Positions 35,339 to 64,000 of a stretch of 64,000 nucleotides of DNA are shown one piece after another; position 1 is the stretch's first letter, and each line of letters opens with the position of its first letter. Origin of the DNA: Streptosporangium album (GTDB lineage: Bacteria > Actinomycetota > Actinomycetes > Streptosporangiales > Streptosporangiaceae); the NCBI RefSeq assembly GCF_014203795.1, contig NZ_JACHJU010000004.1, positions 1-64,000 on the forward strand, given 5' to 3'. The position numbers were made by a program, and so were the translations under genes. The notes below the pieces were generated by a model, which had not been told where the DNA came from, searched no databases, and worked only from the letters and a program-made list of their open reading frames with translations.

Positions 35339-35343
35339 GGAGG
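35339..35343 (+). promoter_or_regulatory. Ribosome binding site of the glycosyltransferase
   Basis: GGAGG, 5 nt before the ATG at 35349. It selects this start over an in-frame extension reaching back into PKS B. Confidence 0.8.
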
Positions 35344-35348
35344 TACGC

Positions 35349-36704: not shown

Positions 36705-36716
36705 CCGCTCATGACC

Positions 36717-36722
36717 GAAGGG
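36717..36722 (+). promoter_or_regulatory. Ribosome binding site deciding the P450 start
   Basis: GAAGGG, 6 nt before the ATG at 36729. The earlier in-frame ATG at 36711 has no Shine-Dalgarno-like sequence, so the shorter start is preferred. The choice changes only six residues. Confidence 0.5.
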
Positions 36723-36728
36723 CACCGC

Positions 36729-37904
36729 ATGTCCAGCACCGAGATGTCCAGCATCGAGTTCCCCACGCGGCGGCACGGGCAACTGTCGCCCCCTGACGAG
36801 TACGCCGTGCTCCGGGCTCAGCCGGGCCTGGTCAGATCGGCGCTGCCGGGTGGCAGCACCGTATGGCTGGTCGCGCGCCACGAGGACGTGCGGGCCGTAC
36901 TGACCGACCCCCGGATCAGTGCCAGTCCGCTGCATCCGGGGTTCCCGACGATCGGGCGCAACGGGACCGTGCCGCCGCCCGACCAGATCCCCGGGTGGTT
37001 CGTCGCCTACGACCCACCCGAGCACACCAGGTTCCGCAAGGCGCTGATCCCCGAGTTCACCGTACGGCGGGTCAGCGAGCTGCGCCCGACCGTCCAGCGG
37101 ATCGTCGACTCCTGCATCGACGCCATGCTCGCCGGAGGCACCGCGGCCGACCTGGTGTCCGCGTACGCGCTGCCGGTGCCGTCGCTGGTCATCTGCGAGC
37201 TGCTCGGCGTGCCGCGTTCCGACCGCGAGCTGTTCGAGTCGAGGACGCGCGTCCTGGTGACGCTCACCTCGACCGAGGACGAGCGCGACGCCGCCACCCA
37301 GGACCTGCTGCTCTACATCGCCAAACTGATCGCGATGAAGCAGCGTTTCCCCGGCAGGGACCTGCTCAGCCGGCTGCTGTCGGCCGGGACGCTGACCCCC
37401 AAGGAGATCTCGGGCGTCACGATGCTGCTGCTGATCGCCGGGCACGAGACGACGGCGAACAACATCGCGCTCGGCGTCCTCATGCTGCTGCTGAACCCGC
37501 AGTGGATCCACACGCCGGGCGTGGTCGAGGAGGTGCTGCGCTACCTGTCCGTGGCCGACCGGGTGGCGCTGCGGGTGGCCGTGGAGGATGTCGAGATCGG
37601 CGGGCAGCTCATCAGGGCCGGGGAGGGAATCGTCCCGCTCGGTGCCTCGGCCAACCACGACCAGGCCACGTTCGAGCGCGCGGACGAGTTCGATCCGACC
37701 CGTTCCGCCCGCCATCATGTCGCGTTCGGGTACGGCGTGCACCAGTGCCTCGGGCAGAACCTCGTCAGGATCGAGATGGAGACCGTCTTCGAGTCCCTGT
37801 TCCGGCGGATTCCTGGCCTCGAACTCGACCAGGCGGTGGAGGACCTGCCGTTCAAGTACGACGGCGTGCTGTTCGGGCTGCACGCGCTGCCGGTCCGTTG
37901 GTGA
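36729..37904 (+). CDS. Cytochrome P450, CYP105-like
   Basis: A 391-residue soluble bacterial P450 that oxidises the macrolide with electrons from the adjacent ferredoxin. Visible signatures are the I-helix A237-GHETT (proton delivery), the K-helix ExxR as E268-VLR271, and the heme loop FGYGVHQCLG with axial Cys340. The early DPPEHTRFRKALIPEFT block and RHHVAFGYGVHQCLGQNL are typical of CYP105. In polyene clusters a CYP105H member with its own ferredoxin (AmphN/AmphM, NysN/NysM, PimG/PimF) turns an exocyclic methyl into a carboxylate. PKS C supplies a matching methyl through module C3, so that role is inferred here. The segment between the I-helix and ExxR (LLLNPQWIHTPGVVEE) looks about eight residues shorter than usual. 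Gap to the glycosyltransferase stop is 24 nt; an alternative start is 36711. Confidence 0.93.
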   Translation: MSSTEMSSIEFPTRRHGQLSPPDEYAVLRAQPGLVRSALPGGSTVWLVARHEDVRAVLTDPRISASPLHPGFPTIGRNGTVPPPDQIPGWFVAYDPPEHTRFRKALIPEFTVRRVSELRPTVQRIVDSCIDAMLAGGTAADLVSAYALPVPSLVICELLGVPRSDRELFESRTRVLVTLTSTEDERDAATQDLLLYIAKLIAMKQRFPGRDLLSRLLSAGTLTPKEISGVTMLLLIAGHETTANNIALGVLMLLLNPQWIHTPGVVEEVLRYLSVADRVALRVAVEDVEIGGQLIRAGEGIVPLGASANHDQATFERADEFDPTRSARHHVAFGYGVHQCLGQNLVRIEMETVFESLFRRIPGLELDQAVEDLPFKYDGVLFGLHALPVRW

Positions 37905-37920: not shown

Positions 37921-38115
37921 ATGCGGGTGAATGTGAACGCCGAGCGCTGCATCGGCGCCGGCCAGTGCGTGCTCATCGCGCCCGAGGTCTTCGACCAGAG
38001 CGACAAGGGCACGGTCACGGTTCTGGCCGAGACCCCAGGCGACTCGGCCCGGGCCGTCGTGTGGCAGGCCGTCCGTTCGTGCCCGTCCAGATCCATCTCG
38101 CTCGCCGACGGCTGA
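37921..38115 (+). CDS. 3Fe-4S ferredoxin, P450 redox partner
   Basis: A 64-residue electron carrier, predicted to hand electrons to the P450 whose stop is 16 nt upstream. Cys10, Cys16 and Cys54 fit the three-cysteine pattern of actinobacterial 3Fe-4S ferredoxins (CIGAGQC and a late SCPS). EVFDQ follows the first pair as in that family, and length is normal. The ATG at 37921 has GAGGGG 4 nt upstream. A GTG at 37909 is in frame but has no comparable site. The stop codon lies in the loop of the terminator hairpin. A ferredoxin reductase is not in the window and is usually supplied from elsewhere in the genome. Confidence 0.93.
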   Translation: MRVNVNAERCIGAGQCVLIAPEVFDQSDKGTVTVLAETPGDSARAVVWQAVRSCPSRSISLADG

Positions 38116-38146: not shown

Positions 38147-39565
38147 TCAGGGTTGTGACAGCGGGATGACCTCACGGAACTTGCCGCTGGCGGACAACTG
38201 AGGCGGTTCGTCCGCCCGTTCGAGCGTGATGTCGCCGGCCTCGTGCTCTGTGAGCAACTGGGTGAGCTCGGCCCGCACCGCCTTCCACACGTGGTCGGCA
38301 TCGGCGTCGGCCGCCGCCGTCAGGCGCACCCGCAGGTTCGTGGGCGTGGTCTGGACGATCTGGAACTGCTCGATCCCGCCACCGGGAACGTGGTCCACCA
38401 GCGCGCCGATGGCCATCGGCGCGATGCTGACCGGCTCGCCCCGGCCGCCGGGGAAGGTGAGCACGTCGGCGGTACGGCCCTGCACCCTGACCGCAGGCCG
38501 CGGGTCCCCGCACGGACAGGGGTCGGGGCGGACCACGACGCTGTCGCCCAGGTCGTAGCGGAGTATCGGCTGGACCCGGTTGGCGAGGTTGCTCAGCAGC
38601 ACGGTGTGCGACGGCTCGCCCGGCGGGGTGGGCCGGTAATCGGCGTCGACGGGCTCCAGCACTGCCCAGTCGCTGTTGACGTGGTACCAGCCGTGGCCGC
38701 AGCCGTACGAGAGGAAGCCGCACTCCGTCGTGGAGTACGTTACGGCGATCCCGGCGTCGAAGGCGTCGCCGAACCGGCTGACGTCCTCTGTCGTCACGGT
38801 CTCGCCCGCGGCGAAGACCACCGCAGGCCTGATCCGCAGGCGGCCCTTCTCCTGCTGGCCGGCGAGCAGCGAGAGCACGCTCGGCGAGCTCATGATCATC
38901 GCCGGGCTGTACGCGTTGAGCTCGGCAACCAGTTCGGGCAGCGGCCGGTAGATCGAGATGATCCGCAGCAACCGGCCGGTCAGCTTCCGTTTCTGGAACC
39001 GGAGCGCCAGGGCCAGGCTGAGCCCGTGGCCGTTGGGCGCGCAGATCATCGCCATCCGCCCGCGCCGGGCCAGGATCCGCATGAGGACGCCGAGGTTCAT
39101 CCCTGAACTGGTGAGCGAGCCGAGGGCGACGTTCACCGCCATGTTGCGGTCGTCCAGCAGGAAGTACCCGAGCACGCCCGTGGTGCCGGAGGTGTGGGCG
39201 ACCATGTACTTGCCGAGGAACCGCTCGCCCACGAGCCCCGGGTCGTCCACGAACGTCTGGACCTGCTCGAACGTCACCTCGCGATCGGTGACCCAGTCGT
39301 CGAAGCGGTCCATCAGCGCCTGTTTGGTGGTGATCGGCAGCATCGCCGGATCGTCGACCCTGTCCGGCAGATCCCGGTAGAGCTCGCGGAAGTACGGCGA
39401 GGCGGCGCGCGCGAAGGTCACCATCTCAGCCAGATTGGCGCGCTGCCGTTCCTGGATGGCCGCTGGGCCGAGTTCGTGGGCGCGTCTGGAGTCGCGCCTG
39501 AGCTGACGGATGTCTTCGCCCATGATCGTCTGGTCCTGTCTCTGATGAGCGGGGGTGCATGTCAT
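38147..39565 (-). CDS. PaaK-like adenylate-forming enzyme (phenylacetate-CoA ligase family)
   Basis: A 472-residue member of the PaaK/coenzyme F390 synthetase branch of adenylating enzymes. It is expected to activate a carboxylic acid as acyl-AMP and transfer it to CoA or a carrier thiol. Visible motifs are the nucleotide loop AHTSGTTG at residues 123-130, an A5-like YSTTECG, LRYDLGD near the hinge, a Cys-rich CPCG as in PaaK proteins, and a C-terminal SGKFRE whose Lys is the likely catalytic one. The substrate cannot be read from sequence. The start ATG at 39565 overlaps the stop of PKS C as ATGA and has GGAG 4 nt upstream, so translation is coupled to the PKS. Possible roles are starter activation, acylation of the sugar or macrolide, or release of a stalled chain. 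No homologous step is known to me in the classical polyene pathways. An alternative start is the ATG at 39523. Confidence 0.9.
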
Positions 39566-42500
39566 GAAGCTCCGCCGTCGAGGGCCGCCCGCACGAGCTC
39601 GTCGAGCCCCATCGAGTCGATCGCGTCATCGGCGTCGTCCCCGGCGGGGGCTGCCTGGTCGCCGCCGGACAGGTGCAGCAGCGCGTCGAGCACGCCGATC
39701 TCCCTGAGCCTGGCCATGGACAGCGACGCGAACAGCGCCCGTACCCGGGCCTCCTCCTCGTCGACGATCGCGGCCCCCTCCGTGTCCGGCAGGAGTCGCG
39801 CGATCACGTGAGCGGCGAGGGCCTCAGGGGTCGGGTAGTCGAAGATGAGCGTGGACGGCAGCTTCAGCCCCGTCGCCGCCGTGAGCCGGTTGCGCAGCTC
39901 GATCGCCCCGAGGGAGTCGAATCCGAGGTCGCGGAACGGCTGGTCGGCGTCGATCGTCTCGCGGCCTGCGTGCCCGAGTACCATCGCGATCTGGCCGAGC
40001 AGCAGGTCGATCACCACGCCCCGCCGTTCCGCGCCGGGGAGGGCGGCCAGCCTGTTCCGCAGCGCGGACACCGGCTGCGTGTCGTCCGCCGCCGTCCCGT
40101 ACCGCTCGGTCAGTTCCCGGTAGCGGGGCAGCTCGCGCAGCAGCGGGCTGGGACGGCCGACGGTATACGAGCGGACGAACCGCTCGTGGTCGATGTCGGC
40201 GACCACACTGGCAGGTTCGCCTCCCGCGACGAGACCGCCCAGCGCGGCGACGGCGAGCCCGGGGTCCATCGGGCGCACGCCCATGCGGCGGGACGCCTCC
40301 TGCGCCGCGGCCGCGTCCGCCATGCCGCTGCCCGCCCAGGGCCCCCAGGCCACCGAGGTGGCCGCGAGCCCGCGATCGCGGCGCCAGCCGGCCAGCGCGT
40401 CGAGCACCGCGTTGGCCGCGGCGTAGTTGCCCTGGCCGAGGCTGCCGAGCGTGCCCGTGGCGGACGAGAACAGCACGAACGCCGGCAGGTCCAGATCCCG
40501 GGTCAGCTCGTCCAGCAGGAACGCCGAGGTCACCTTGGCGCGGAACACGGTCTCCAACCTGTCCTGAGTCAGCCCGTCCACCACGCCGTCGTCGACCACG
40601 CCCGCGGCGTGCACCACCGCGGTGAGCGGGTGCTCCGCCGGGATGCCGCCCAGCAGGGCGGCCAGCGCGTCCCGGTCGGCCGTATCGCATGCGGCCACGG
40701 TCACCCGGGTGCCCAGTCCCTCCAGCTCGTGGCGCAGCTCGGCGGCGCCCGGGGCGTCCGGGCCACGCCTGCTGACCAGCAGCAGGTGCTCGACGCCGGT
40801 CCCGGCCAGCCACCGGGCCACGTGCCCGCCGAGCGCGCCCGTGCCACCGGTGATCAGCACGGTTCCGTACGGCTTCCAGTCGCCCGACGGTCCGGCGTGG
40901 GCCCGCACCAGCCGCCTGACGTACGTGCCCGTGACCCTGACGGCGGCCTGGTCCTCGCCTGCCGCGCCTGACAGCAGGCTCGCCAGCCGTCGTACCGCTG
41001 CCCGGTCGACGCTGTCGGGCAGGTCGATCAGGCCGCCCCACCGCTGCGGCTGCTCCAGCGCGGCGACCAGACCGAGCCCCCACACGGCGGCCTGCGCCGG
41101 GCTTCGCACCGCATCGCCTGGACCGGCCGCGACCGCACCGCTGGTGAGGCACCACAGCGGCGCGTCCACACCGGCATCGCCTAGGGCCTGGAGGAGCAGC
41201 GTGGTCATCACCAGCCCCTCGGGAACGTCCGCGGCTTCGGAAGGCGTTCGCAGGGACAACAACGACACGACCCCGGCGTACGGCCCGGCATGCGCGCGGA
41301 GCCGCTCGGCCAGCGCGACCCGGTCCTCCGGTGTGGCGGTCAGGTCAGGCACCTCCAAGCGCACGACCTCGGCTCCTAAGAGCCCGAGCGCGTCCGGCAC
41401 CGCATCGGTCCAGGCGCCTGCCGCCTGTCGCGCGGGAAGCACCACCAGCCAGGGGCCGCTCGCGCGCCGGCCGGGCGGCTCCCCGATGAGCGGCTGCCAG
41501 GTGATCCGGTACCGCCAGGCGTCGATGGCGGATCCGTGATCCTGCCGCCCTGCCGTACGCACCGGCTCCGGCCAGAAGCGCTCGTGCTGAAAGGCGTACG
41601 TCGGCAGGTCCACGAACCCGGCCCCGGTCCCGGAGAACACAGCAGCCCAATCGGGGCTCAATCCACCCACGTGCAACCGGGCGAGTGCGGTGACGACGGC
41701 CTCGCGCTCATCGCGGTCCCTGCGCAGCAGGGGCACCAGCTCGACCTCGGCCTCCGGCGGGAGCATGTCGCCCGCCATCGCCGTCAGCGTGCCGTCGGGG
41801 CCGATCTCCACGTACCTGGTCACCCCGGCCTCGTGCGCCGCCCTGATCCCGTCGGCGAACCGGACGGTCCCGCGCACGTGCTCCACCCAGTAGTCCGGCG
41901 AGCACAGCTCGTCGGTGGCGAGTCCGCCGGTCACGTTCGAGATCACGGGGATACGCGGCGGCGCGTAGGTCAGCCGTTTCGCGACCGCCCGGAAGTCCTC
42001 CAGCATCGGCTCCATGAGCGGTGAATGGAACGCGTGCGAGACGCGCAGCCGCCGTGTCTTGCGCCCGCGCTCCTCCAGCACGCCCGCCACGTCGAGCACG
42101 GCGCGCTCCGCTCCCGCGATCACCACCGCCTCAGGCCCGTTGACCGCGGCGAGGGAGACCTCGTGCCCGTCAAGGAGCGGCAGGACCTCCTCCTCGGTGG
42201 CCTGGATGGCCACCATCGCGCCACCGGCGGGGAGCCGCTGCATGAGCGTGGCCCTGGCCGCCACCAGGGCGCACGCGTCCTCGAGCGACAGCACGCCCGC
42301 CACGTGCGCCGCGGCCAGCTCGCCGACCGAGTGCCCCGCCAGCACGTCAGGGGTGAGCTGCCACGATTCGAGCAGGCGGAACAGCGCCACCTCGACCGCG
42401 AACAGCGCCGGCTGGGTCCATCCCGTCTGGTCGAGCAGCACGGCCTCCTGCGTGTCCGCCGCGGCGAAGAGGATCTCCCGCAGCGGCCGGTCCAGCCGGA

Positions 42501-45500
42501 CGTCCAGGTGCGCCAGCACGGCGTCGAGCGCGTCGGCGAAGACGGGGAAGCGCTCGTACAGCTCGCGGCCCATCCCCGCCCGCTGGGCGCCCTGGCCGGT
42601 GAACAGGAACGCCGTCCTGCCCGCCCGTCCCACCCGGCCCTCGATCACGTGAGGCGCCGGGCTGCCGTCCGCGACCGCAGTCAGGCCGTCCAGGAGCTCC
42701 TCACGGCTCGCGGCCAGGACGGCGAGGCGCCGCCGGAAGCTCGACCGGGTCGTGGCCAGGGAGAGCGCGAGCTCGGCCAAGCCGATCTCGGAGTGGTCGG
42801 CAAGGTGGTCCAGCAGGCGCCGCGCCTGCGCCCGCACCGCCGTCGGGGTCTTGGCCGACAGCGGCACAGGAAGCAGGCCGGGGCGCACAACGGCCGGATC
42901 GACGCTCGCCTCGGTGGGAGGCGGCTCCTCGATGATCACATGGGAGTTGGTCCCGGTGGCGCCGAAGGACGAGATCGCGGCACGGCGCGGGCGCCCGGCG
43001 GCGGGCCACGGCCTGGCCTCGGTCAGCAGCTCCACCGCACCCGCCGACCAGTCCACATGCGCCGACGGCGCGTCCACGTGCAGCGTCTTCGGCGCGATGC
43101 CGTGCCTCATCGCCATGACCATCTTGATCACTCCGGCGACTCCCGCCGCCGCCTGCGTGTGGCCGATGTTGGACTTGACCGATCCGAGCAGCACCGGCCG
43201 CTCGCGGTGCCTGCCGTACGTCTCCAGCAGGGCCTGGGCCTCGATCGGGTCGCCCAGTTTCGTACCGGTGCCGTGTGCCTCCACCACGTCCACGTCGGAG
43301 GAGGCGAGCCCGGCGTCGGCGAGTGCCCGGCGGATCACCCGCCGCTGGGAGGGGCCGCTCGGCGCGGTGAATCCGTTGGACGCGCCGTCCTGGTTGACGG
43401 CGGAACCGCGCAGGATCGCGAGCACGCGATGGCCGTTGCGCCTGGCGTCGGAGAGCCGTTCGACCACGAGCATGCCGACACCCTCCGCCCAGCCGGTGCC
43501 GTCGGCGGCGTCGGAGAACGCCTTGCACCGGCCGTCAGGGGACAGTGCACCCAGCTCCCCGAACTCGATGAAGCCCACCGGGGTGGACATCACGGTCACG
43601 CCACCCGCCAGGGCCAGCGAGCACTCGCCCGAGCGCAGCGCCTGGGCCGCCAGATGCAGCGCCACCAGAGACGAGGAGCAGGCGGTGTCCACAGTCACCG
43701 CAGGACCCACCAGGCCGAAGGCGTACGACACGCGGCCGGAGATCACGCTGGCCGCCTGGGCCGTCTGCGCGTGGCCGAGATGATCGCGAGGTGGCTGGTA
43801 GTCGCCGCCGGTGGCGCCGACGTAGACGCCGACCTCGTCGCCCCGCAGGCCGGCGGGGTCGACACCGGCGCGTTCCAGTGCCTCCCAGACCGCCTCCAGG
43901 ACCAGCCGCTGCTGGGGATCCATCACCATCGCCTCGCGCGGCGAGATGCCGAAGAACCCCGGGTCGAAGTCGGCGACGTCGTAGAGGAAGCCGCCCTCGG
44001 CGGCCGCGCTGCGGCCACGTCCGTCGGGACCGCCCTGGGCCAGGACGGCGAGATCCCAGCCCCGGCCCGTGGGGAACGGGCCGACCGCGTCCGCCTCGTC
44101 CCCGACCAGCCGCCACAGGTCCTCTGGCGAGCGCACCCCGCCGGGGAACCGGCAGCTCATGCCGACGATGACGATCGAGTCGTCGATGGGCACGGCCGGG
44201 CGCGTGCCGGTGTCCTCGCCCGGCTCCACCTCACCGAGCAGCTGTCCCACCAGGTGCCCGGCAAGGTCCTCCGGTGTCGGGTGATCGAACACGAGCGTGG
44301 CGGGCAGGGCGAGCCCGGTCGCGGCCTTGAGCTGGTTGCGCAGGTCGACCGCGGTGAGCGAGTCGAAGCCGAACTCGCGGAAGGCCCGGCCGGCGTCGAC
44401 GGCGGCTCCGTCCGCGTGCCCGAGTACGGCGGCGGCCTTGGCCGTCACCAGGTCGAGGACGAGCCGGGTCCGCTCGGCCGCGGGCAGCCCCAGCAGGCGT
44501 TCCCTGAGCGCGGGCTCGCCGTCGTGAACCTCGTCGGCCACCTTGGCCTGCGGGATCTCGTCCAGCAGCGGCGTCGGACGCAGCGCGAGGAAGGCCGGGG
44601 CGAACAGCTCCCATGCCACGTCGGCGACCGTCATCGCGCTCTCTCCGCCGGCGACGACCCGGCCCAGGGCGCCCAGTGCGAGCTCGGGTGCCAGAGCGGG
44701 CAGGCCGTTCAGTCTCAAGTGCCTGTCCATGCCATCGCCTCCGGCCACGCCGCCGTCCGCCCATGCCGACCACGACACGGCGATCCCGGTCAGGCCTCTG
44801 GAGCGACGTGCTTCGATCAGGGCGTCCCTGACCGCCTCTGCGGCAGCGGACGCGGCGCGTCCGGCGACACCCCACACCCCGGCCACCGAGCAGAACAGGA
44901 CGAACGCATCCAGCTCCCGGTCGTGCAGCAAGGCATCCAGGTTGGCCGCTCCGGCGACGTGGTCCGTGACGGCCACGGTCAGGTCCGCCGGCTCGGTGCC
45001 GTCCAGAGTGGCGGGGGCGGCCGGTTCGTCGGCGTAGATCACCGCGTCCGGTGGGAACTCCGCCAGGACGGCCGCCAGCGCCTCCCGGTCCGCCGGGTCG
45101 CAGTACCTGACCGTCACTCGGGGGTCGGAGGGCTCGGCTGAACCGGGCCGCCCGGCCAGTACCACCCGCTCGGCGCCCGCGTCGGCCGCCCATCGGGCGA
45201 TGCGCTCCCCGGAGGCTCCGGTGTCCCCGGCGACCAGGACTGTGCCGCGAGGCCTCCAGGACCCGTCGCCGCCCGCCGCCGGTACGAGCCGCCGGCCGAA
45301 CACACCGGAGGCGCGCAGGGCGGCCTCGCTCTCGCCTCCGGCAAGCACACCGGCGAACCGGGCGATGACCCGCCGGTCGAGTGTCCCGGGCAGGTCGATC
45401 ATGCCGCCCCACCGTCCAGGATTCTCCAGCGCGGCGACCCGGCCAAGGCCCCAGACGGCGGCCTGCTCCGGATGCGGCGGCACGTCGGACCGGCCCACGG

Positions 45501-48500
45501 AGACCGCGCCTCGGGTGACACACCACAGAGGCGCGGCGACACCCGCGTCGCCCAGCGCCTGGAGAAGAGCCGCCGTCAACGCGACCCCGGCCAACTCCGC
45601 GCCGTCCGCCCGATTCCGACCCGGCAGACCGGCATCGTCCGTCCCGGCAAGCGCCAGCAGGGAGATCACACCGGCGAACGCCTCGTGTGCCCGCAGTTCC
45701 GCCAGCCGTACGGCCAGCGTCGCGCGGTCGGCACGCGTGACGTCCAGCCGCACCAACGCGTCGGAGCCGGCGAGTGCGGCGCCCACGATATCGAGCACCT
45801 CCGCCCCCTGCCCGGCGGGAACGGCCACCAGCCATCGCCCGGACGGACCGCCGGACGGCAGGCGGGCCAGGGGCTTCCACACCACCCGATAGCGCCACGA
45901 ATCCACGAGAGTGTGCTCGCGACGGGCACGGCGCCAGGACGACAGCGCGGGCACCAGCGCCGACAGCGAGTCCGCCTCCACCTCCAGCGTGGCCGCCACC
46001 GACTCCACGTCGGCCCGCTCGACCGCGGCCCAGAACTCCGCGTCCACCGGATCCGCCGCCTGGCCGCCGGCCACGGCTTCCGGCCAGAACCGCCGACGCT
46101 GGAAGGCGTATGTGGGCAGGTCGACGCGGCGCGCGCCGCATCCGGCGAAGAGGGGCCGCCAGTCGACCGCGAGCCCGTGGACCTGCAGCCGGACCAGCGC
46201 GTCCACGGCCGACGACTCCTCGCCGCGGTCCTTGCGCAGCAGCGGCACGACCAGCGTCCCCGCCTCGGTGCCGTCGCCCGCCAGGCAGTGCTGGGTCATC
46301 GCGGACAGTACGCCGTCCGGGCCGAGTTCGATGAACGTGCTCACGCCAGAGCCCCGCAGGGTGCGGACGCTGTCAGCGAAGCGAACTGCCTGCCGCGCGT
46401 GCTCGACCCAGTAGTCCGGCGAACAGAGCCGCTCGGCGACGGCGAGCTCGCCGGTCAGGCTGGATACGAACGGGATCGCGGGCGGCGAGAATCTGAGCCC
46501 GCGGATGGCCCGGCGGAACTCCTCCACCATGGGGTCCATCAGGGGTGAATGGAAGGCGTGGCTGACGGACAGCCGGGTGGCCTTGCGGCCCTCCGTCACG
46601 AACCGGGCGGCGATCTCGGTGACCGGTTCCTCGGCTCCGGCGATCACCACCGCAGAAGGCCCGTTGACCGCCGCGATCGAGAGCTCGCGGCCGTCGAGCA
46701 TCCGGAGCACCTCGTCCTCGGTGGCCTGTACGGAGACCATCGCTCCCCCCGCCGGCAGGGCCTGCATCAGGCGACCGCGGGCGGCGACCAGCGTGCACGC
46801 ATCGGCCAGCGTCAGCACCCCGGCGACGTGCGCCGCGGCGATCTCGCCGATCGAGTGCCCTGCCACCAGATCGGGCAGCAGCCCCCACGACTCCGCCAGG
46901 CGGAACAGGGCCACCTCGACGGCGAACAGCGCGGGCTGCGTCCACTGCGTCTGGTCGATCAGCTCCGCCTCGGGCGATCCGGTCTCGGCGAACAGGATCG
47001 TCCGCAGCGGGCGGTCCAGCTCGACGTCGAGCTGGGCGAGCACCGCGTCCAGCGCACGGGCGAACACCGGGAACCTGTCGTACAGCTCCCGGCCCATGCC
47101 GGGGCGCTGGGAGCCCTGCCCGGCGAACACCATCGCCGACAGGCCGCCGATCGGCGCGGCCTCACCCCGCGCGATCTCCGTCACGCCGTCGGCACCGGCC
47201 AGCAGCACCGCGCGGTGGCGGAACATGGACCTGCTCGTCAGCGAGTAGCCGACGTCAAGCGGGTCGAGGGCACGACCGGCGGTCACGACCCGCTCGACCT
47301 GGGCTCGCAGCGCCTCAGGGGTCCGTCCGGAGACCACCCACGGCACGACGGCCGCCTGCCTGCGCTCCCCGGCCTGCGACTCCTGGCCCCGCACTTCTGC
47401 GGGCGCCTCTTCGAGGATGACGTGGGCGTTGGTTCCGCTGATCCCGAAGGCGGAGACACCCGCCCGCAGCGGCCTGCCGTACCGCGCCCAATCCCTAGCC
47501 TCGGCCAGCGGCTCGACCGCCCCTGACGACCAGTCCACGTGCGACGACGGCACCTCGGCGTGCAACGTCCTGGGCAGCAGGCCGTGCCGCATGGCGAGGA
47601 CCATTTTGATCACACCGGCGACGCCCGCCGCCGCCTGCGTGTGGCCGAGGTTGGACTTGATCGACCCCAGCCACAGCGGGTGGTCCCGGTCCTGGCCGTA
47701 GGTCGCGAGCAGGGCCTGGGCCTCGATCGGGTCACCGAGAGCTGTGCCGGTGCCGTGGGCCTCGACCGCGTCGACCTCGGCCGGTGACAGCCCCGCTGCG
47801 GCCAGCGCCCGGCGGATCACCCGCTGCTGCGACGGGCCGTTCGGTGCGGTGAGTCCGTTGGACGCGCCGTCCTGGTTGATCGCCGACCCGCGCACGATGG
47901 CGAGAACCGGATGGCCGTTGCGCCGGGCGTCCGACAGGCGCTCGAGCACGAGCATGCCGACGCCTTCCGACCAGCCCGTGCCGTCCGCCGCGTCGGAGAA
48001 CGCCTTGCACCGCCCGTCGGGAGCCAGGCCGCCCTGGACACTGAACTCGACGAACGAGTCTGGGCTGGACATCACCGACACGCCGCCCGCGAGCGCCAGC
48101 GAGCATTCGCCGCCGCGCAGGGCTCGGGCGGCCCAGTGGAGAGCGACCAGGGAGGACGAGCACGCGGTGTCGACGGTGACGGCGGGGCCCTCAAGCCCCA
48201 GCGTGTAGGACAGCCGACCGGACATGACGCTCGCCGTGGTGCCGGTGGCCACATGTCCGCGCACGTCCTCGGCCGAGGACTTGAGCAGGCCGATGTAGTC
48301 CTGTCCGTTGGTGCCCACGAACACACCGGCGTCGCTGCCCCGCAGGCCCATGGGGTCGATGCCGGCCCGCTCCAGTGCCTCCCACGACACTTCGAGCACC
48401 AGGCGCTGCTGCGGGTCCATGGCCAGCGCCTCGCGCGGTGAGATCCCGAAGAACTCGGCGTCGAACTCGGTCGCGTCGCTGAGGAACCCGCCCACTGTGG

Positions 48501-54500: not shown

Positions 54501-57500
54501 AGCCCACGCCCTGGACCTGCGCCTGGACGGGGTTGGTGACCGGATCCGCCCGGCCGGTGGAGACCGCGCCATGGGTGAGGCACCACAGCGGCGCGTCGAT
54601 GTCCGCATCGCCCAGCGCCTGGACGAGCGCGACGGTCAGCGCCAGTCCTGCGGTCAGCTCCGGGTGGCGTTCCGCTGGCTGTTCAGCCAGGGCCAGCAGG
54701 GATACCACGCCGGAGACAGGCTCGGTGAACGCCCGCGCCAGCACCTCTCGGTCGAGGTGCGACTCGTCGAGCACGATCCTGTGGACCCGGGCCCCATGCG
54801 CGGTCAGGGCGTCGGCCACGTCCTCGTCCGCCACGCCCTCGGTCGTGACGAGCAGCCACGTGCCCGCCAGCGAGACGGAGGCCAGGCCGGTCACCGGACG
54901 CCACTCGACGCGGTAACGCCAGGAGTCCAGCGTGGACCTGGCCCGCTGCCTGCGACGCCACGACGACAGCGCGGGCAGGACCGCGGCCAGTGCCTCCTGG
55001 CCGACGTCCAGCCCGGAGGCCAGCGAGTCGAGGTCCTCCTGCTCCACCGCCGTCCAGAACCGCTCGTCCACCGAGCCGGGTTTCCCCGGCTCGGCGCGCT
55101 GGATCCAGAACCGCTCCCGCTGGAAGGCGTAGGTGGGCAACTCCACGCGGCGGGCGCCGCTTCCGTCGAAGGCCGCCCGCCAGTCGACGGGCAGACCGCG
55201 CACGAACACCTCGGCCAGGGAGGTCAGGAAACGCTCCGCGCCGCCCTGGTCGCGCCGCAGCGTCCCAGCGACGACCGTGCCCTCGGCGGAGCCCTCGGTC
55301 GTCTCCTGGATCGCGCCTGTCAGCACAGGGTGCGGACTGACCTCGACGAATGCCCGGTGCCCTTCGTCCAGCAGCCGGCGTACGGCCAGCTCGAACCTGA
55401 CGGCCTGCCGCAGGTTGCGGTACCAGTAACCGGCGTCCAGCTCCGTGCCGTCCAGCCACTCCCCGGTCACCGTGGACAGGAACGGCACCCCGGCCCGCTC
55501 AGGCGTGATCGCCGCCAGTGCCCTCGGGAGCTCCTCCTGGAGCCATTCGACATGGGCCGAGTGCGAGGCGTAGTCGACCGCGACCCGGCGGGCTCGCACG
55601 CCCTCCCCTGTCAGCCGCTGCGACAGCTCTTCGATCGCATCGAGGTCGCCGCTCACCACGACGGAGCGCGGCCCGTTCACCGCGGCGACCGAGATCCGTT
55701 CCTTCCAGGGGCTCAGCCGCTCCTCGACGTCCCGCTCCGGGAGGGAGACCGACATCATCGCTCCGGCGCCGGCCAGCCGTCGGGCGATGGCCTGGCTGCG
55801 CACCGCCACCACCAGCGCGGCGTCCTCCAGCGACAGCGCGCCCGCCACGCAGGCGGCGGCGATCTCACCCTGGGAGTGCCCGATCACCGCGTCAGGCTCC
55901 ACGCCGTGGGCACGCCACATCGCCGCGAGCGAGACCATCACGGCGAACGACACCGGCTGCACGACGTCCACGCGCTCCAGCGACGGCGCGCCTTCGGCCT
56001 GGCGCAGCACGTCGATCAGCGACCAGTCGACATACCTGCTCAGGGCCAGGGCGCACTCGGCGATGCGCTCGGCGAACACCGGGGACTCCTTCAGCAGGCT
56101 CGCGCCCATGCCCGCCCACTGCGCGCCCTGACCGGGGAACACGAAGACCGTCTTGCCCTCGACGTCCGCCACGCCCTGGACCACGCCGGGCGAAGGTTCG
56201 CCCGCGGCCACCGCCCGCACAGCGGCGGTGAGAGCCTCGCGCTCGCCGCGCACCACGACAGCGCGGTGCTCGAACGCCGACCTCGACGTCACCAGCGAGA
56301 AGCCCACATCGAGCGGATCGTGCTCGTCCACGTGCGCGGCCAGCCGCCCCGCCTGCGCGCGCAGCGCCTCCGCCGTCCTGCCCGACACCACCCAAGGCAC
56401 CGGGCCGTGACGGTGGTCACCATCGACGGCCCCGGCTGGAGTCTCCGGGGCCGGTGCCTGTTCGAGGATCGCGTGGGCATTCGTGCCACTGATCCCGAAC
56501 GACGACACGGCGGCCCGGCGCGGACGCCCGGTCTCCGGCCACGCCACGGCCTCGGTCAGCGGCTCGACCGCGCCCGAGGCCCAGTCCACGTGCGACGACG
56601 GCGTGCCGACGTGCAGGGTCTTCGGCAGCAGCCCGTGCCGCATCGCCATGACCATCTTGATCACGCTCGCCACACCCGCCGCGGACTGCGTGTGGCCGAT
56701 GTTCGACTTCACGGACCCGACCAGGAATGGATTCTCCCGGCCCTGGCCGTACGTCGCGAGAAGGGCCTGAACCTCGATCGGATCGCCCAGGGCCGTGCCG
56801 GTGCCGTGTGCGTCGATCGCGTCGACCTCGGCCGGGGACAGCCGCGCGCCCGCCAGCGCCTGCCGGATCACCCGCTGCTGCGAAGGACCGTTGGGCGCGG
56901 TCAGCCCATTGGACGCGCCGTCCTGGTTCACCGCGGAACCGCGCACCACCGCGAGGATCGGATGCCCGTTGCGCCGCGCGTCGGACAGCCGCTCCAGCAC
57001 GAGCAGTCCCGCGCCTTCCGCCAGGCTCATCCCGTCGGCCGCGTCGGAGAACGCCTTGCACCGGCCGTCGGCGGCCAGGGCCCGCTGGCGGCTGAACGCG
57101 ACGAAGGAGACCGGAGTGGTCATCACCGTCACGCCGCCCGCCAGCGCGAGCGAGCTCTCGCCGTTGCGCAGCGACTGGCAGGCCAGGTGCATCGCCACCA
57201 GCGACGACGAGCACGCCGTGTCGACGGTGACCGCGGGTCCTTCCAGTCCGAGCACGTACGACACGCGGCCGGACAGCACGCTCGGGATGGTGCCGGTGAC
57301 CTGGTGCCCTTCGGCGTCGGGGGCGTTCGAGCCGTACTCCTGGTAGCTGGAGCCGATGAACGTGCCCGTCGGGCTGCCGCGCAGCTCGGAGGGCTCGATC
57401 CCGGCCCGTTCGATGGCCTCCCACGCGGTCTCCAGCAGCAGGCGCTGCTGCGGGTCCATGGTCAGTGCCTCGCGCGGCGAGATCCCGAAGAATCCCGGGT

Positions 57501-60500
57501 CGAAGTCACCGGCGTCGTGGAGGAAGCCTCCGTCGAGGGAGTACGTCGTGCCCGAATGATCGGGGTCTGGGTCGTAGAGCCCTGCCGTGTCCCAGCCGCG
57601 GTCGGCAGGGAATCCGGAGATGGCGTCGGCCTCGTCGGTCACCAGTTCCCACAGATGCTCAGGCGAGCCGACGCCGCCGGGGAACCGGCAGGCCATCCCG
57701 ATGATCGCGATCGGCTCGTCGGCGGGGCCGGCGGCGACGGTCCGCGCGGCGTCCGCGTCCGCCTCCTGCACGACCTGCGCCCGCAGGAAGTCCACCAGCG
57801 CGGCCGGGGTCGGGTGATCGAACACCAGCGTGCTCGGCAATGCCAGGCCGGTGACCGTGACCAGGCGCTTGCGCAGTTCCACCGCGGTCAGGGAGTCGAA
57901 ACCCAGCTCGCGGAACGCGCGCCGCTCCGCGACCGCCTGGGCCGAGGCGTGCCGCAGCACCGCCGTCACCTCGGTGCGCACCAGTTCCAGCAGCGTGCGC
58001 CGCTGATCCTTCTCGCTCATGTCGCGCAGCTTCGCGATGAACGCCGGATCGCCTGCCGCGCTCTCGCGCTCTGCCCTGACCTCGGCGAGTTCGCTGAACA
58101 GGTGGCTGCGCCTGGCCGAGGTGAACACCGGATAGAACCGGTCCCAGTCGACGTCGGCGACCGTCACCACGGCATCCTCACCGCCGACCGCCCGGCTCAG
58201 CTCCCTGATCGCGAGAACGGGCGGCAGGAAGGCCAGCCCGCGTCTGAGTAAGTAGTCGGCCATGGTCTCCTCCACGGCCATCCCGGCTTCCGCCCACGCG
58301 CCCCAGGCCACCGACGTCGCGGCGACACCGCGCGCCCGCAGGTGCTCGGCCAGCGCGTCGAGGTAGGCGTTGGCCGCCGCGTAGGCGCCCTGTCCCGCAC
58401 CGCCCCAGACGCCCGCGACCGAGGAGAACAGGACGAAGAAGTCGAGCTCGCGATCTCCGGTCAGGTCGGCCAGGTTGGCGGCGCCCGCCACCTTCGCGGT
58501 CATCACGGCGGCGAGCTCGGCGGCGTCCGCCTGATCGAGTGGGGCGACGGCCTGGCTCACTCCGGCCGCGTGGACGACCCCGGTGAGCGGGTGGTCGGCC
58601 GGGATGGCCTCCAGCACGGCGGCCAACGCCTCGCGGTCGGCCACGTCGCAGGTGACGACGCTCACCTCAGCGCCCAAGGCGACCAGCTCGTCGCACAGCT
58701 CAATCGCCCCTGGGGCGTCCATGCCCCGGCGGCTGGTCAACACCAGGCGCGCGGCGCCGCCGCCGCTCGCCAGCCACCGCGCAGTGGCCGCTCCCAGCGC
58801 GCCGGTCCCACCGGTGATCAGCACCGTGCCGCCAGAACCCGGCACCCTGCCGGACGAGCGCTCCTGGCCGGGGGTGACCGGACGGCGCCGCAGCCGGCGG
58901 CCGAACACGCCCGTTGCGCGGACCGCGACCTGGTCCTCGCCGTCCATTCCCGCCAGCACGCCGGCCAGGCCGGGCGCTGCCCGCCCGGCGACGACGTCGG
59001 GCAGGTCGATCAGGCCGCCCCACCGCTTCGGGTGCTCCAGGGCCGCAACCCGGCCCATACCCCACACCTGCGCCTGGAGCGGGCTCGTCACCCGGTCTCC
59101 GGCAGTCGCGGACACGGCGCCACGAGTGAGGCACCACAGCGGCGCGTCGATCTCCGCATCCCCCAGCGCCTGCAGGAGCGCGACCGTGAGCGCCAGACCG
59201 TCCTCCGCCGGCATCGACACCACGCCGGAGATCTCACCCAGCCCTCTGAGCCGGTCGGCGAGCGCCGCCCGGCCGCCGTCCGTCCCGTCCACCGGGAACC
59301 GCTCCACCCGCGCCCCGTGACCCTCCAGCGCGCCGACCACGTCGCCGTCCGCGATCCCGTCCGCGGTCACGACCAGCCAGGTCCCCTCCAGTACGGCGAG
59401 CGGAGGCGTACGGCGCGGCAGCCACTCCACGCGATAACGCCACGAGTCGAGCGTCGAGGCCTCACCCCGGCTCCGCCGCCACGACGACAGGGCGGGAAGC
59501 AGGGTGTCCAGCGAGGACGGGTCCTCAAGGGACAGCCCGAGGATCGCGGCCACGTCCCCGGCGTCGCCACGCTCGACCGCCTCCCAGAGCCGCGCGTCCG
59601 CCGGATCCCCTACCTGTCTCGCGGCAGGCTCAGGCCAGAACGACTCGTGCTGGAACGCGTACGTGGGCAGCTCCACCCGGCGGCCCCCGCGAGCCAGGAC
59701 CCGCCAGTCGACACCGACGCCGTTCACGTGCAGCTCGGCCAGCGCGGTCATGAGGGCGACGCGCTCATCACCGTCGCCGCGCAACACGGGCACCAGCAGC
59801 GCGTCCGCCTGTTGGGGGAGGGCGTCCTGGGCCATCGCGGTGAGCACGCCGCCCGGCCCGATCTCCAGGAACGCGGTCACACCGGCCTGGTGTAACGCCA
59901 GTATCCCGTCGCGGAACCGGACCGCCTCCCGCACGTGCCGTACCCAGTAACCGGACGTGCACAGCTCGTCCGTGGCGAGCGCACCGGTCACGTTGGAGAC
60001 GACCGGGATCCGGGGCGGGTGGTAGGTCATCGACTCGGCGACCGTCTGGAACTGCGCGAGCATCGGCTCCATGAGCGGAGAGTGGAACGCGTGCGACACC
60101 CGCAGCCGCTTGGTCCGGCGATCCCGTGCGGCCCACCCGGCCGTGACGGCCAGCACCGCGGACTCGGCTCCGGCGATCACCACTGACATCGGGCCGTTGA
60201 CCGCCGCGACGGACACCTCGGACTCCCGCCCGGCCAGCGATGCGAGAACCTCCTCCTCGGTGGCCTGAATCGCCACCATCGCGCCGCCTGCCGGGAGCGC
60301 CTGCATCAACCGGCCCCGCGCGGTCACCAGCACGCAGGCGTCCTCCAGCGTCAGCACCCCGGCGATGTGCGCCGCGACGAGCTCCCCGATCGAGTGCCCC
60401 ACCAGCGCGTCAGGGCGCACACCGTACGACTCGACCAGCCGGTAGAGCGCGACTTCGAGGGCGAACAGCGCCGGTTGTGTGTACTCCGTACGGTCAAGTA

Positions 60501-63500
60501 GCCCGGCGTCAGAGAAGAGAGCCTCGCGCAGCGAGGGATCCAGGTGGGACAGCACCTCGTCGAGGGCCTGGGCGAACACCGGGAACCGCTCGTAGAGCTC
60601 CAGCCCCGTCCCCACCCGCTGAGCGCCCTGGCCCGTGAACAGGAACGCCGTCCTCCGATCGTCCATGACCTGGCCGCGTACAGCTCCCGCCCGCCCCGTG
60701 GCCAGCGCCCGTAGCCCGGCCAGCGCCCCGTCACGGTCCTCCGCCAGCACGGCCGCGCGATGCTCGAAGGCCGAACGGGTGGTCGCCAGCGAGAACGCCA
60801 CGTCGGCCAGGTCCACGTCGGGACGCTCTTCCAGGTGGGAAAGCAGCCGCGCGGCCTGTTCCCGCACCGCCTGCTCCGTCCTGCCGGAAACCGGCAGAGG
60901 CAGGCCCGTCACCTGCCTCACGACCGGGAGCGTCCCGGCGCCGCCGTCCTGTTCGATGACGAGGTGGGCGTTGGTGCCGCTGAAGCCGAACGACGACACG
61001 GCGGCCCGGCGCGGGCGGCCCGTCTCAGGCCACTCGCGCGCCTCGGTCAGCAGTTCCACCGCTCCGGCCGCCCAGTCGACGTGCGAAGACGGCGCGTCCA
61101 CGTGCAAGGTCTTGGGCACGATGCCGTACCGCATGGCCATGATCATCTTGATCACGCCCGCGACGCCCGCCGCTGCCTGCGTGTGCCCGATGTTCGACTT
61201 GATCGACCCGAGCAGCAGGGGCCGGTCCTCCGGCCTCTCCCTGCCGTAGGTCGCAAGCAGCGCCTGCGCCTCGATCGGATCGCCCAGGGTGGTCCCGGTT
61301 CCGTGTCCCTCGACCACGTCCACCTCGGCCGGGGACAGGCGTGCTCCGGCCAGGGCCTGGCGGATCACCCGCCGTTGGGAGGGGCCGTTCGGCGCGGTCA
61401 GGCCGTTCGACGCGCCATCCTGGTTGATCGCCGATCCGCGCACGACGGCGAGCACTTCGTGCCCGTTGCGCCTGGCGTCCGACAGGCGCTCCAGCACCAG
61501 CACGCCGACGCCCTCGGCCCAGCTCACCCCGTCGGCGGCATCGGCGAACGACTTGCACCGCCCGTCCGCCGACAGCCCGCGCTGCCGGGAGAACTCGACG
61601 AACGCCCCCGGCGTCGCCATCACGGTCACGCCACCGGCCAGCGCGAGCTCGCATTCGCCCGCGAGCAGCGCCTGCGTCGCCAGATGCACCGCCACCAGCG
61701 AGGACGAGCAGGCCGTGTCGACCGTCACGGCCGGTCCCTGCAGGCCAAGCGTGTAGGAGACCCGCCCGGAGACGACGCTCGCGGCGGTCCCCGTGCCCCG
61801 GTAGCCCTCGAACTCGCTCGCGCCGAGCATCCCGCTGTAGTCGGAGTACATCACCCCGGCGAACACGCCCGTCGAGCTGCCCCTGAGCGAGACCGGGTCG
61901 ATCCCGGCCCGCTCGACCGCCTCCCAGGAGGCCTCCAGGAGCAGCCGCTGCTGCGGGTCCGTCGCCATGGCCTCCCTCGGGCTCATCCCGAAGAAGTCCG
62001 CGTCGAACTCCGCCGCGTCATGCAGGAACCCGCCCTGCCTGGTGTACGAGCTGCCCGCGTGGTCGGCGTCCGGATGGTAGATCGAGCCCAGGTCCCAGCC
62101 ACGGTTGACAGGGAAGCCGGTGATCACGTCACGACCCTCGGCCACCAGCCGCCACAGGTCCTCCGGTGAGGTGACGCCCCCCGGATAGCGGCAGCTCATC
62201 CCGACGATCACGACCGGGTCGTCGGCGACCGGCATGACGGCAGCGGGAACGGCCACGTCGTGCTGCGCACCCAGCACCTCGTCGAGCAGGAACTCCGCCA
62301 GCACGACCGGCGTGGGGTAGTCGAACACCTGCGTCGCGGGCAGGCGCAATCCCGTCGCCCGGCTCAGCCCGTCGCGCAGTTCAAGCGCGGTGAGGCTGTC
62401 GAAACCCAGCTCGCGGAACTCCCGCCGGGCGTCGACGAGGTCCGGCGAGGCGTGCCCCAGCACCAGCGCCACCTGGGTCCGCACGATGTCGAGCACGGCC
62501 CGCAGCCCGTCGGCGCGCTCCATTCCGGCCAGCCACCGGACCAGCGCTCCGCCGGCCGCCGCGGACCCCGAGGCCGCCGACCGGCGCGCCGCCCTGACCA
62601 GCCCTCGGAGCAGGTGCGGCACCTCGCCGTGCGCACGCACCGCGGCGAGGTCGATCCTGACCGGAGCCACGACCGGCCGTCCTGCCCGTACGGCGACGCC
62701 GAACAGCGCAAGTCCCTCGTCTGCGGTGAACGCCGACATCCCGGCGCGGGCCATCCGCCGTGCTTGGACGTCGTCCAGCGCTCCGGCCATCCCGGTGTCC
62801 TGCGCCCATGGTCCCCACGCGAGCGACACCCCGGGCAGCCCTTCTGCCCTTCGGTGCTCGGCCAGCATGTCGAGGAACGCATTGGCCGCCGCGTAGTTGC
62901 CCTGGCCTGCGGCTCCCACCGTGCCCGCCACCGACGAGAGCAGGACGAAGGCGGCCAGATCCAGCTCGCGGGTGAGCCGGTGCAGATGCCAGGCCGCGTC
63001 CACCTTCGGCCGCAGCACCGCGTCCAGCCGCTCGGCGGACAACGACGGCATCGTTCCGTCGTCCAGCACCCCGGCGGCGTGGATGATCGCGGTCAGCGGG
63101 TGCTCCGGATCCACGAGAGCGAGCAGCGCCGCCAGTTGGCTGGGTTCGGCCACGTCGCAGGCGGCGATCGTGACGTCGGCTCCCCTGGCGACCAGGTCGG
63201 CCCACAGCTCCACCGCGCCAGGCGCGTCCATGCCCCGGCGACCGGCCAATAGCAGATGCCGTATCCCGCGCTCGGCCACCACGTGCCTGGCCAGCAACGT
63301 CCCCAGAGCACCGGTGCCACCCGTGATCAGCACGGTCCCCTCGGGATCCCACGCCCGGCCATCCCTGGACTCGCCGTCCGGATCGTCACCGACCCGCGCC
63401 AGGCGGGGCACCAGAATCTCGCCCTGACGGATCGCCGCCTGCGGTTCCCCGGAAGCAAGCACAGCGGCCAGCGCCTCGGGCGACGCCTCGTCCAGGTCCA

Positions 63501-64000
63501 CCAGCACGAACCGGCCCGGGTTCTCCGACTGCGCGCTGCGGACCAGACCCCACACCGCCGCTGCCGCGAGATCGGTGAGCGAGTCCCCCTCGCGCGCCAC
63601 CACCGCGCCCCGAGTGATCACCACCAGGCGGCCGTCACCGCTGGGCTCATCGGCCAGCCATTCCTGCACCAGGTTCAGAACCCGCGCGCTCAGCTCGTGC
63701 GCCGACTCCACCACCCCGGCCGCCGGATCCGAGACCATCTCCGCCAGCACCGCGTCCGTCACCGCCTCGGCCGGGACACGGTGCGGCAACCCGGTCCACT
63801 CCACGGCGAACAGCGCGTCTCGGCCGCTGGGAAGGTCACCGGCCGAGAACGGCCGCAGCACCAGTGACCGCGCCGACAACACCGGCTCCCCCGCGACGTC
63901 CACAGCCGTCACGGAAACCGAGTCGTCGCCGGTCTTGACCAGGCGTACTCGCAACACCGACGCACCGGAGGCGTGCAGGCGCACCCCACCCCACGAGAAC
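39562..64000 (-). CDS. Type I modular PKS C, AmphI/NysI-like, 5' end beyond window
   Basis: At least 8,145 residues are seen. With the missing KS-AT-DH of its first module the protein would be near 9,600 residues, the size class of the six-module AmphI/NysI. Order: C1 = (DH end)-KR-ACP; C2 = KS-AT-KR-ACP; C3 = KS-AT(methylmalonyl)-KR-ACP; C4 = KS-AT-KR-ACP; C5 = KS-AT-KR(inactive)-ACP; C6 = KS-AT-KR-ACP, then an acidic C-terminal docking tail ending near 39565. Only C3 uses methylmalonyl; the others seen use malonyl. The predicted products are alkene, OH, methyl+OH, OH, ketone, OH. The frame runs off the right edge; an in-frame GTG at 63984 is not a start, because the DH motif FSWGGV continues upstream of it. 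There is no thioesterase, so another subunit must accept the chain. The PaaK-like gene overlaps its stop. Confidence 0.97.
39570..39573 (-). promoter_or_regulatory. Ribosome binding site of the PaaK-like ligase inside PKS C
   Basis: GGAG on the minus strand, 4 nt before the ATG at 39565 and within the last codons of PKS C. Together with the ATGA stop-start overlap it indicates translational coupling. Confidence 0.6.
39785..44183 (-). other. PKS module C6 (KS-AT(malonyl)-KR-ACP)
   Basis: Leaves a beta-hydroxyl. KS is about 44183-42920 with DTACSSS. The AT is about 42620-41580, with GHSVGE and HAFH near 42030, so malonyl. No DH. The KR (about 40868-40310) has VDD at the B-type position and intact Ser/Tyr/Asn. 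The ACP Ser codon is 39913-39915 (LGFDSL). Followed by the C-terminal docking tail. Equivalent to module 14 of AmphI/NysI (C11-OH) if the orthology holds. Confidence 0.9.
44232..48662 (-). other. PKS module C5 (KS-AT(malonyl)-inactive KR-ACP)
   Basis: Predicted to leave a ketone. KS is about 48662-47415. The AT is about 47135-46085, with GHSIGE and HAFH near 46550. The KR region (about 45250-44730) keeps the fold but is degenerate. The nucleotide loop reads AGDTGASG instead of GGTGALG. The catalytic Lys of AKVAGAANL is His, the catalytic Tyr is Ser (44848-44850) and the catalytic Asn is Glu (44836-44838). The catalytic Ser is kept. The ACP Ser codon is 44359-44361. Equivalent to module 13 of AmphI/NysI, which also leaves a ketone. 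Confidence 0.9.
48712..53183 (-). other. PKS module C4 (KS-AT(malonyl)-KR-ACP)
   Basis: Leaves a beta-hydroxyl. KS is about 53183-51920. The AT is about 51620-50580, with GHSVGE and HAFH near 51033, so malonyl. The KR (about 49760-49215) has LDD (B-type) and Pro at the position used to mark B2 (FGSPGQAGY). The malonyl unit gives no alpha-methyl for it to set. The ACP Ser codon is 48835-48837. Confidence 0.9.
53238..57717 (-). other. PKS module C3 (KS-AT(methylmalonyl)-KR-ACP)
   Basis: Adds the only methyl branch made by PKS C and leaves a hydroxyl. KS is about 57717-56460. The AT is about 56155-55110, with GHSQGE near 55875 and YASH near 55566, so methylmalonyl. The KR (about 54300-53740) lacks LDD and has [11 protein letters not shown], with Trp and His as in A2-type KRs, which give an L-hydroxyl with an epimerised methyl. 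Tyr and Asn are present (YVAGN). The ACP Ser codon is 53362-53364. The methyl is the predicted P450 target. Confidence 0.92.
57765..62219 (-). other. PKS module C2 (KS-AT(malonyl)-KR-ACP)
   Basis: Leaves the first hydroxyl after the polyene. KS is about 62219-60955. The AT is about 60655-59640, with GHSIGE and HAFH near 60087, so malonyl. The KR (about 58835-58270) has no LDD but has [11 protein letters not shown], with Trp but Gln at the His position, so A1-type (L-hydroxyl). The ACP Ser codon is 57892-57894. Equivalent to module 10 of AmphI/NysI, whose C19-OH carries the sugar. Confidence 0.9.
62268..64000 (-). other. PKS module C1 (end of DH-KR-ACP, rest outside window)
   Basis: The right edge cuts inside the [16 protein letters not shown] is the DH C-terminal block seen in all DH modules of PKS A and B and absent from C2-C6, so a DH is present, although its catalytic His is outside the window. 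The KR (about 63350-62780) has LDD (B-type) and an intact catalytic set. The ACP Ser codon is 62395-62397. Predicted product: the alkene that closes the polyene just before the polyol head. Confidence 0.85.

Follow-up and report, generated by a model that had tools for sequence, protein, structure and literature searches.

A NysI-type hexamodular synthase in Streptosporangium album that very likely builds the nystatin-type head of a giant, probably linear polyene polyol

A stretch of 64,000 nucleotides from Streptosporangium album (bases 1-64000 of contig C4, NZ_JACHJU010000004.1, in a genome of 9.02 Mb on 14 contigs; hereafter the window) carries the genes of three polyketide synthases (PKSs), PKS A, PKS B and PKS C. 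The domain order of PKS C raises the question of whether an amphotericin/nystatin-type head is made here and, if so, to what kind of molecule this head belongs. By sequence comparison, PKS C is an orthologue of NysI, that is, a hexamodular synthase of the AmphI/NysI type, and we consider it very likely that it makes the nystatin-type head of a giant, probably linear polyene polyol resembling meijiemycin.

The open frame of PKS C occupies contig C4:39562-67371 on the minus strand and contains no internal stop. Its first in-frame start, an ATG at contig C4:67365, gives a protein of 9267 amino acids, and the 5' end of the gene lies 3.4 kb outside the window. Domain maps were drawn with hidden Markov models (HMMs) built from the domains of PKS A, B and C, and with a TE model from contig C8 of the same genome. 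They divide PKS C as follows.

39562..64000, the gene extending past the window to contig C4:67365, minus strand: PKS C, six-module AmphI/NysI-type PKS (frame, domain map, KS/KR trees, alignment)
62275..64000, minus strand: 3' part of module C1 (DH end, KR, ACP), with KS, AT and most of the DH at contig C4:64001-67266 (HMM domain map)
57772..62220, minus strand: module C2 (KS-AT-KR-ACP), hydroxyl corresponding to the glycosylated one, with the sugar position predicted (domain map, trees)
53242..57717, minus strand: module C3 (methylmalonyl AT, KR), methyl branch plus hydroxyl, KR nearest to the solved AmphI domain 4l4x
48715..53184, minus strand: module C4 (KR), hydroxyl, KR of module-6 type (domain map, KR tree)
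44239..48660, minus strand: module C5, ketone, dead KR at about 44725-45252 (domain map, motifs)
39793..44181, minus strand: module C6 (KR), hydroxyl (domain map, trees)

Module C1 reads KS-AT-DH-KR-ACP, modules C2, C4 and C6 each read KS-AT-KR-ACP, and C3 reads KS-AT(GHSQG)-KR-ACP. Module C5 is likewise KS-AT-KR-ACP, with a KR that scores 130 bits against 270 to 318 for the other five; an extra DH-like stretch in C4 (39 bits) was treated as noise. The resulting logic of alkene, hydroxyl, methyl plus hydroxyl, hydroxyl, ketone and hydroxyl agrees with what an earlier note had read from the letters of this DNA. The same is true of its single methylmalonyl AT, which belongs to C3 (GHSQG/YASH), and of its single dead KR, that of C5, where GDTGASG replaces the NADPH motif and the catalytic Tyr and Asn are changed to Ser and Glu, respectively. 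The motifs YASH, KSQ and LDD/W were read here in their usual meanings. The KS, AT and DH that the note had missed in the first module were found in the 5' flank, where they complete one module and no additional module appears. The next upstream gene encodes a GDP-mannose dehydratase, so no further module precedes C1, and many more modules in the same gene are ruled out by the flank frame, the domain map and this dehydratase gene.

Because its module order and degenerate module-5 KR recur in 12 of 12 comparison proteins, as far as these were read, the architecture of PKS C is far from chance. These proteins were picked from search hits, mainly for their long frames, and are not a random sample; four of them (milb, hoyn, aure and Nx) were incomplete as read. 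With PKS C included, the module-5 KR lacks the catalytic Tyr and Asn in 13 of 13 proteins, by varying substitutions, and both residues are kept in all 62 KRs from the other modules.

Orthology was judged from trees of 194 KS and 181 KR domains (contigs mil440, mil385, mil443 and Acat94, as well as short domains, were left out). For each module of PKS C, we took the smallest clade that also contained a module of NysI, which was read from Streptomyces noursei strain A-2-1. With their KS domains, all six PKS C modules join the NysI module of the same number. The clades of modules 1, 5 and 6 (10, 13 and 13 members; support 0.964, 0.942 and 0.998) are exclusive to their own module number, those of modules 2 and 4 contain a few other modules, and module 3 joins NysI only within a common clade of modules 3 and 4. 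With their KR domains, four of the six (modules 2, 3, 5 and 6) join their NysI namesake, the clade of module 5 being exclusive (12 members, support 0.995). Aligned over 9097 columns, PKS C and NysI share 62.5% identity; PKS C is 65.4% identical to the protein of Streptomyces sp. NBS 14/10 and 81 to 84% identical to those of close relatives. In the PDB, the AmphI domain 4l4x, which we take to be KR11 of AmphI, is the best match of both the C3 KR (650 bits; next, 408) and the C5 KR (375 bits; next, 327). The proposal of the earlier note that PKS C is the counterpart of AmphI and NysI gained support from the KS tree, from four of the six KRs, from the alignment and from the structural database. 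The S. noursei stretch was unannotated, and the names NysA, B, J, K, L, M, N and D used below were given by us from gene order and size; frames of 1366 and 3192 amino acids presumably represent NysA and NysB, whose sizes they fit. A second hexamodular head protein besides NysI was seen in S. noursei A-2-1 (G020 C1:144546-170000, near the low end of the record); it has its own downstream PKS genes and TE and represents another polyene cluster.

What would become of the chain built by PKS C? The genes next to it on its 3' side are the following.

35226..36704, plus strand: NysDI-like glycosyltransferase, start uncertain, open frame from 34917 (55% over 437 amino acids to the S. noursei counterpart; 52% in a second comparison)
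36711..37904, plus strand: NysN-like cytochrome P450, expected to oxidize the C3 methyl to a carboxyl (70% over 368 amino acids; Pfam p450)
37921..38115, plus strand: NysM-like ferredoxin of 64 amino acids (46% and 53% in two comparisons)
38147..39565, minus strand: PaaK-like adenylate-forming enzyme, its first ATG overlapping the PKS C stop (ATGA), with Pfam AMP-binding only below cut-off

The NysDI-, NysN- and NysM-like genes sit between PKS C and PKS B on the plus strand. The dehydratase gene directly 5' of PKS C, outside the window, is NysDIII-like (77% identity), and beyond it lie a PAS-LuxR regulator and LuxR-type ATPase regulators. On contig C8 there are genes for a type II TE, for an aminotransferase resembling NysDII (71%) and for a P450 that shares 43% identity with the one in the NysL position. 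The N, M, DI, DII and DIII genes for carboxylation and glycosylation of the head are therefore all present, with DII on contig C8. According to the part of PMC8944477 available to us, an AmphI-type hexamodular protein combined with AmphN, DI, DII and DIII is typical of polyenes with a hemiketal-containing, carboxylated and glycosylated head. PKS C very probably makes the same sugar-bearing polar head as that of nystatin and amphotericin.

In the scenario that we favor, a NysC-like protein D, encoded on contig C8, passes its polyene chain to PKS C, which would add the last alkene and five further units, leaving a hydroxyl, a methyl-bearing carbon with a hydroxyl, a hydroxyl, a ketone and a hydroxyl. 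The C5 ketone would lie four carbons from the hydroxyl made by C3, and from this spacing a six-membered hemiketal between the two is the most likely outcome. The NysN-like P450, served by the NysM-like ferredoxin, would turn the C3 methyl into a carboxyl, and the NysDI-like transferase would glycosylate the C2-made hydroxyl with a GDP-derived amino sugar, either mycosamine or perosamine. We leave the choice of sugar undecided because DII is 71% identical to the S. noursei enzyme and equally to that of NBS 14/10, and sequence identity, as stated in the accessible part of PMC8944477, does not tell whether the sugar is perosamine or not.

The PaaK-like enzyme, which may start some 14 codons later judging by its homologues, could modify the head carboxyl or the chain end. 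Homologues occur in 47 of the 341 genomes of the family, and none was found at E <= 1e-30 in the four other genomes with a PKS C orthologue.

To decide what this head is attached to, the rest of the assembly line has to be considered, beginning with the remaining PKS genes of the window.

13487..35551, minus strand: PKS B, four modules, predicted acceptor of the PKS C chain, start probably near 35164 (domain map, alignment)
1..13447, minus strand: PKS A, two modules and a third that the contig edge truncates (frame, domain map)

The PKS B frame is free of stops, as is that of PKS A up to the contig edge. The sequence of contig C8 opens within an ACP, after which come two modules and a TE, tailoring genes, a KSQ loading module (DTGQSS, YASH) that is fused to gene D, and six polyene modules. 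Three findings support placing contigs C4 and C8 in one cluster: module A2 and the TE module on contig C8 have ATs with 100% identity over 876 bases, ER copies on the two contigs are 95 to 96% identical, and G012, a genome of the same genus, shows the same gene order on a single contig. Contig C4 breaks at window position 1 inside the AT of the third PKS A module; the ATs of A2 and of the contig C8 TE module match the visible part of this AT at 100% identity, so the break was probably caused by an exact repeat. Within the line, the order D-C-B is supported by the N and C termini of PKS C and the N terminus of PKS B, which in an alignment judged by eye resemble those of NysI and NysJ.

Here the line continues beyond PKS C for at least nine modules, compared with four after NysI in S. 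noursei, 20 after the head protein in G012 and 21 in Acrocarpospora macrocephala. G012 has 32 extension modules, all on one contig (six in D, six in C, four in B and 16 more), and A. macrocephala has 27 modules from C to the TE. The nystatin/amphotericin-type head put forward in the earlier note consequently holds for the head itself and does not extend to the remainder of the molecule. An ordinary amphotericin/nystatin-like macrolide, with a short NysJ/NysK-type end and a large ring, would account for the nystatin-like PKS C, DI, N, M, DII and DIII, for the ER in the third polyene module (D3), which is also where nystatin has one, and for docking ends between C and B that resemble those between NysI and NysJ. 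We nevertheless regard such a product as highly unlikely. A four-module NysJ/NysK-type ending was not found after PKS C, and on the module count a nystatin-like ending was rejected. Moreover, neither a separate loading protein nor a NysB-like two-module protein was seen on contig C4 1-115000 or contig C8 1-100000, in place of which the KSQ loading module is fused to D, and the TE is nearer to meijiemycin-type TEs than to NysK.

In the giant polyene that we prefer, the chain would pass from PKS C to B and then to A, acquiring a lengthy tail made up of alkene, saturated and methyl-branched units, to which the relatives would add hydroxyls from dead DHs. Several of the post-head DHs in G012 and two in A. 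macrocephala have a Tyr in place of the catalytic His, so parts of their tails should be polyol. The B1 DH (within window positions 13487-35551) keeps its His where both relatives have the Tyr, and the products may differ at this position. Module D3 has an ER in the window genome and none in G012; a diene plus tetraene is therefore predicted here and a heptaene in G012. PKS genes on contigs C6 and C10 were considered as parts of the same line and rejected because of their lower scores against the window-derived HMMs, a different AT motif and a TE of their own on C10. They make up another large type I PKS cluster in the genome (C6:421338-433884 and C10:1-29321, at least two contigs) with its own TE.

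How would so long a chain be released? In the available part of PMC8944477, meijiemycin is a linear polyene polyol, and the clusters of NBS 14/10 and Streptomyces milbemycinicus are described as closely related; these two clusters, called meijiemycin-related there, are those against which we judged the likeness to meijiemycin. The meijiemycin-type gene set (a hexamodular head protein, amino-sugar genes, and a TE gene followed by the KSQ loading and polyene protein) is present in our cluster, and the order from the TE gene to the KSQ loading and polyene protein is also found in NBS 14/10 and S. milbemycinicus. The TE is 62% identical to that of G012, 53% to that of NBS 14/10, 52% to that of S. 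milbemycinicus and 42.5% to NysK; this closer relationship to meijiemycin-type TEs is only a hint of linear release. Alternatively, the TE might close a ring onto a chain hydroxyl, yielding a giant polyene with a nystatin-type head that is a macrolactone. The line does end in a TE with an intact GHSAG, and several hydroxyls would be available along the chain. We consider this unlikely, because synthesis begins with KSQ-propionyl directly followed by six DH modules with intact DH motifs, so that no hydroxyl is predicted near the chain start, and because meijiemycin itself is linear and its presumed relatives share the gene order (PMC8944477, in the part available). The TE module would free the chain, probably as a giant linear polyene polyol of the meijiemycin type and not as a nystatin-type macrolide.

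Several points weigh against this overall interpretation. Both the hemiketal and the linear release are predicted from the genes, and the carboxyl, the sugar position, the chain order and the activity of the pathway are likewise deduced. The KS/KR phylogeny that the earlier note had named as a check sides with NysI for every KS and for the KRs of modules 2, 3, 5 and 6 and departs from it for the other two KRs: that of module 1 reaches NysI only in a clade of 97 members, and that of module 4 groups with module-6 KRs instead of NysI module 4 in the window genome, in G012 and in both Acrocarpospora genomes. In these trees, the KRs of modules 1 and 4 of PKS C have a history other than NysI's. AmphI entered the comparisons through its one solved domain, and meijiemycin through two related clusters. 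The gap between contigs C4 and C8 hides modules, which makes the number of modules counted after PKS C a lower bound. Finally, gene D contains an in-frame TAG at contig C8:21020-21022, in the KS of its first extension module. As a separate matter, the grouping of the C4 KR (window positions 48715-53184) with module-6 KRs reflects an old domain exchange.

One consequence of the TAG might be a broken or silent line in this strain, with no chain reaching PKS C. The stop is absent at this site from the three relatives read (G012, A. macrocephala and NBS 14/10). The PKS C and PKS B frames are open, as is that of PKS A up to the contig edge, and the TAG may come from one miscalled base in the draft assembly. 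A silent or broken line is, in our estimate, rather doubtful, and the TAG is either real or a sequencing error. Frame breaks also occur in the giant A and D genes of G012 (contig C1 near 6577000 and 6665000, in AT regions), where they are assembly errors or real.

How did such a head come to be kept in so variable a line? We compared 457 domains of four close clusters, those of the window genome, G012, A. macrocephala and Acrocarpospora catenulata, at the DNA level, leaving out short domains, two Acat94 frames that belong to another PKS, and DH-like stretches in head modules other than C1. Since gene D of A. macrocephala runs off its contig and the window genome has a gap, not every polyene domain had a counterpart. 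In head modules C2-C6, none of the 15 domains in any of the four genomes is nearer to a copy in its own genome than to another genome, and the closest cross-genome match is the same position in 60 of 60 domains. Outside PKS C, the nearest sequence is a copy in the same genome for 29 of 60 domains in the window genome, 73 of 108 in G012, 11 of 103 in A. macrocephala and 10 of 110 in A. catenulata, the low counts in the latter two probably reflecting how similar these two genomes are; such copies are up to 100% identical over 876 bases. For module C1, own copies are nearest in one of four domains in the window genome, three of four in G012 and one of four in each of the other two. In G012, the C1 AT, DH and KR are nearest to other modules of the same genome, the KR at 99.6%, and the break between homogenized and spared modules accordingly falls inside one protein, after C1. 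A Fisher test of head versus rest gave 2.6e-4 for the window genome and 3.2e-7 for G012, values to be read with the domains not being independent.

Concerted evolution of PKSs and escape from it by divergence have been described, as has, for pimaricin, nystatin and amphotericin, a cluster-specific branching of AT but not KS domains (PMC4256081, in the part available to us). The contrast between head and rest fits this model as far as that part sets it out. Tentatively, then, and with a probability that we place somewhat below even, modules C2-C6 and the tailoring genes may form an insulated pharmacophore cassette that is shared by macrolides and giant linear polyenes, the rest of the line being rewritten by concerted evolution. 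The head could have been spared either by selection or merely because its sequences are too different to recombine. The two regions also differ in composition: the tail modules (window positions 1-35551) have a GC content of 0.69 to 0.71 and a coding-strand GC skew of 0.15 to 0.23, and head modules C2-C6 (within 39562-62220) have a GC content of 0.72 to 0.74 and a skew of 0.01 to 0.08.

A scan of named genomes with the dead-KR region gave at least 55 loci; among the matches listed, the best segments were 76% identical in A. macrocephala, 73% in A. catenulata, 52% in NBS 14/10, 50% in S. milbemycinicus and 47% in S. noursei. In the family of the window genome, Streptosporangiaceae, to which Acrocarpospora also belongs, five of 341 genomes match the region at E <= 1e-120. 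Besides the window genome and G012, these are three from a single other genus, and two of the three are the Acrocarpospora genomes, recognized by identical positions of their matches. A tblastn search of plasmids with the same region gave 146 records, all below 60% identity, 15 of which were listed at 45 to 46%. The available part of PMC8944477, a review, lists Streptosporangium album DSM 43023, A. macrocephala and Acrocarpospora pleiomorpha as carrying related clusters that are incomplete. Ours may be the S. album cluster of that list or a close one; it is a known kind of system, from a cluster group already in print, and not a new class.

The analysis places an uncharacterized cluster in the group whose giant chain, of the meijiemycin type, carries a nystatin-type head. 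In these antifungals, it is the head that bears the sugar and the carboxyl, and its strict conservation in a fast-changing line suggests which modules exchange freely and which do not, a contrast that bears on the re-engineering of such synthases.

Compared with known systems, PKS C shares with NysI the same reductive loops in six modules, the methylmalonyl AT in the third and the dead KR in the fifth, and its KS domains are orthologous position by position, whereas the KRs of modules 1 and 4 differ in history. NysI is followed by the three-module NysJ, in contrast to at least four modules in PKS B and then a long tail here. To AmphI of Streptomyces nodosus the link is the solved domain 4l4x, the top PDB match of both the C3 and the C5 KR. 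The meijiemycin-type clusters of NBS 14/10 and S. milbemycinicus share the hexamodular head protein and the DI-N-M block with ours, but the tail here has more DH and methylmalonyl modules. NBS 14/10 also has the same KSQ loading (DTGQSS), with a malonyl loading AT instead of the methylmalonyl AT found here. Finally, the cluster of A. macrocephala has the same order and a C protein 83.8% identical to PKS C, and it differs from ours in modules B3 and B4 and in an ER that sits in the first polyene module.

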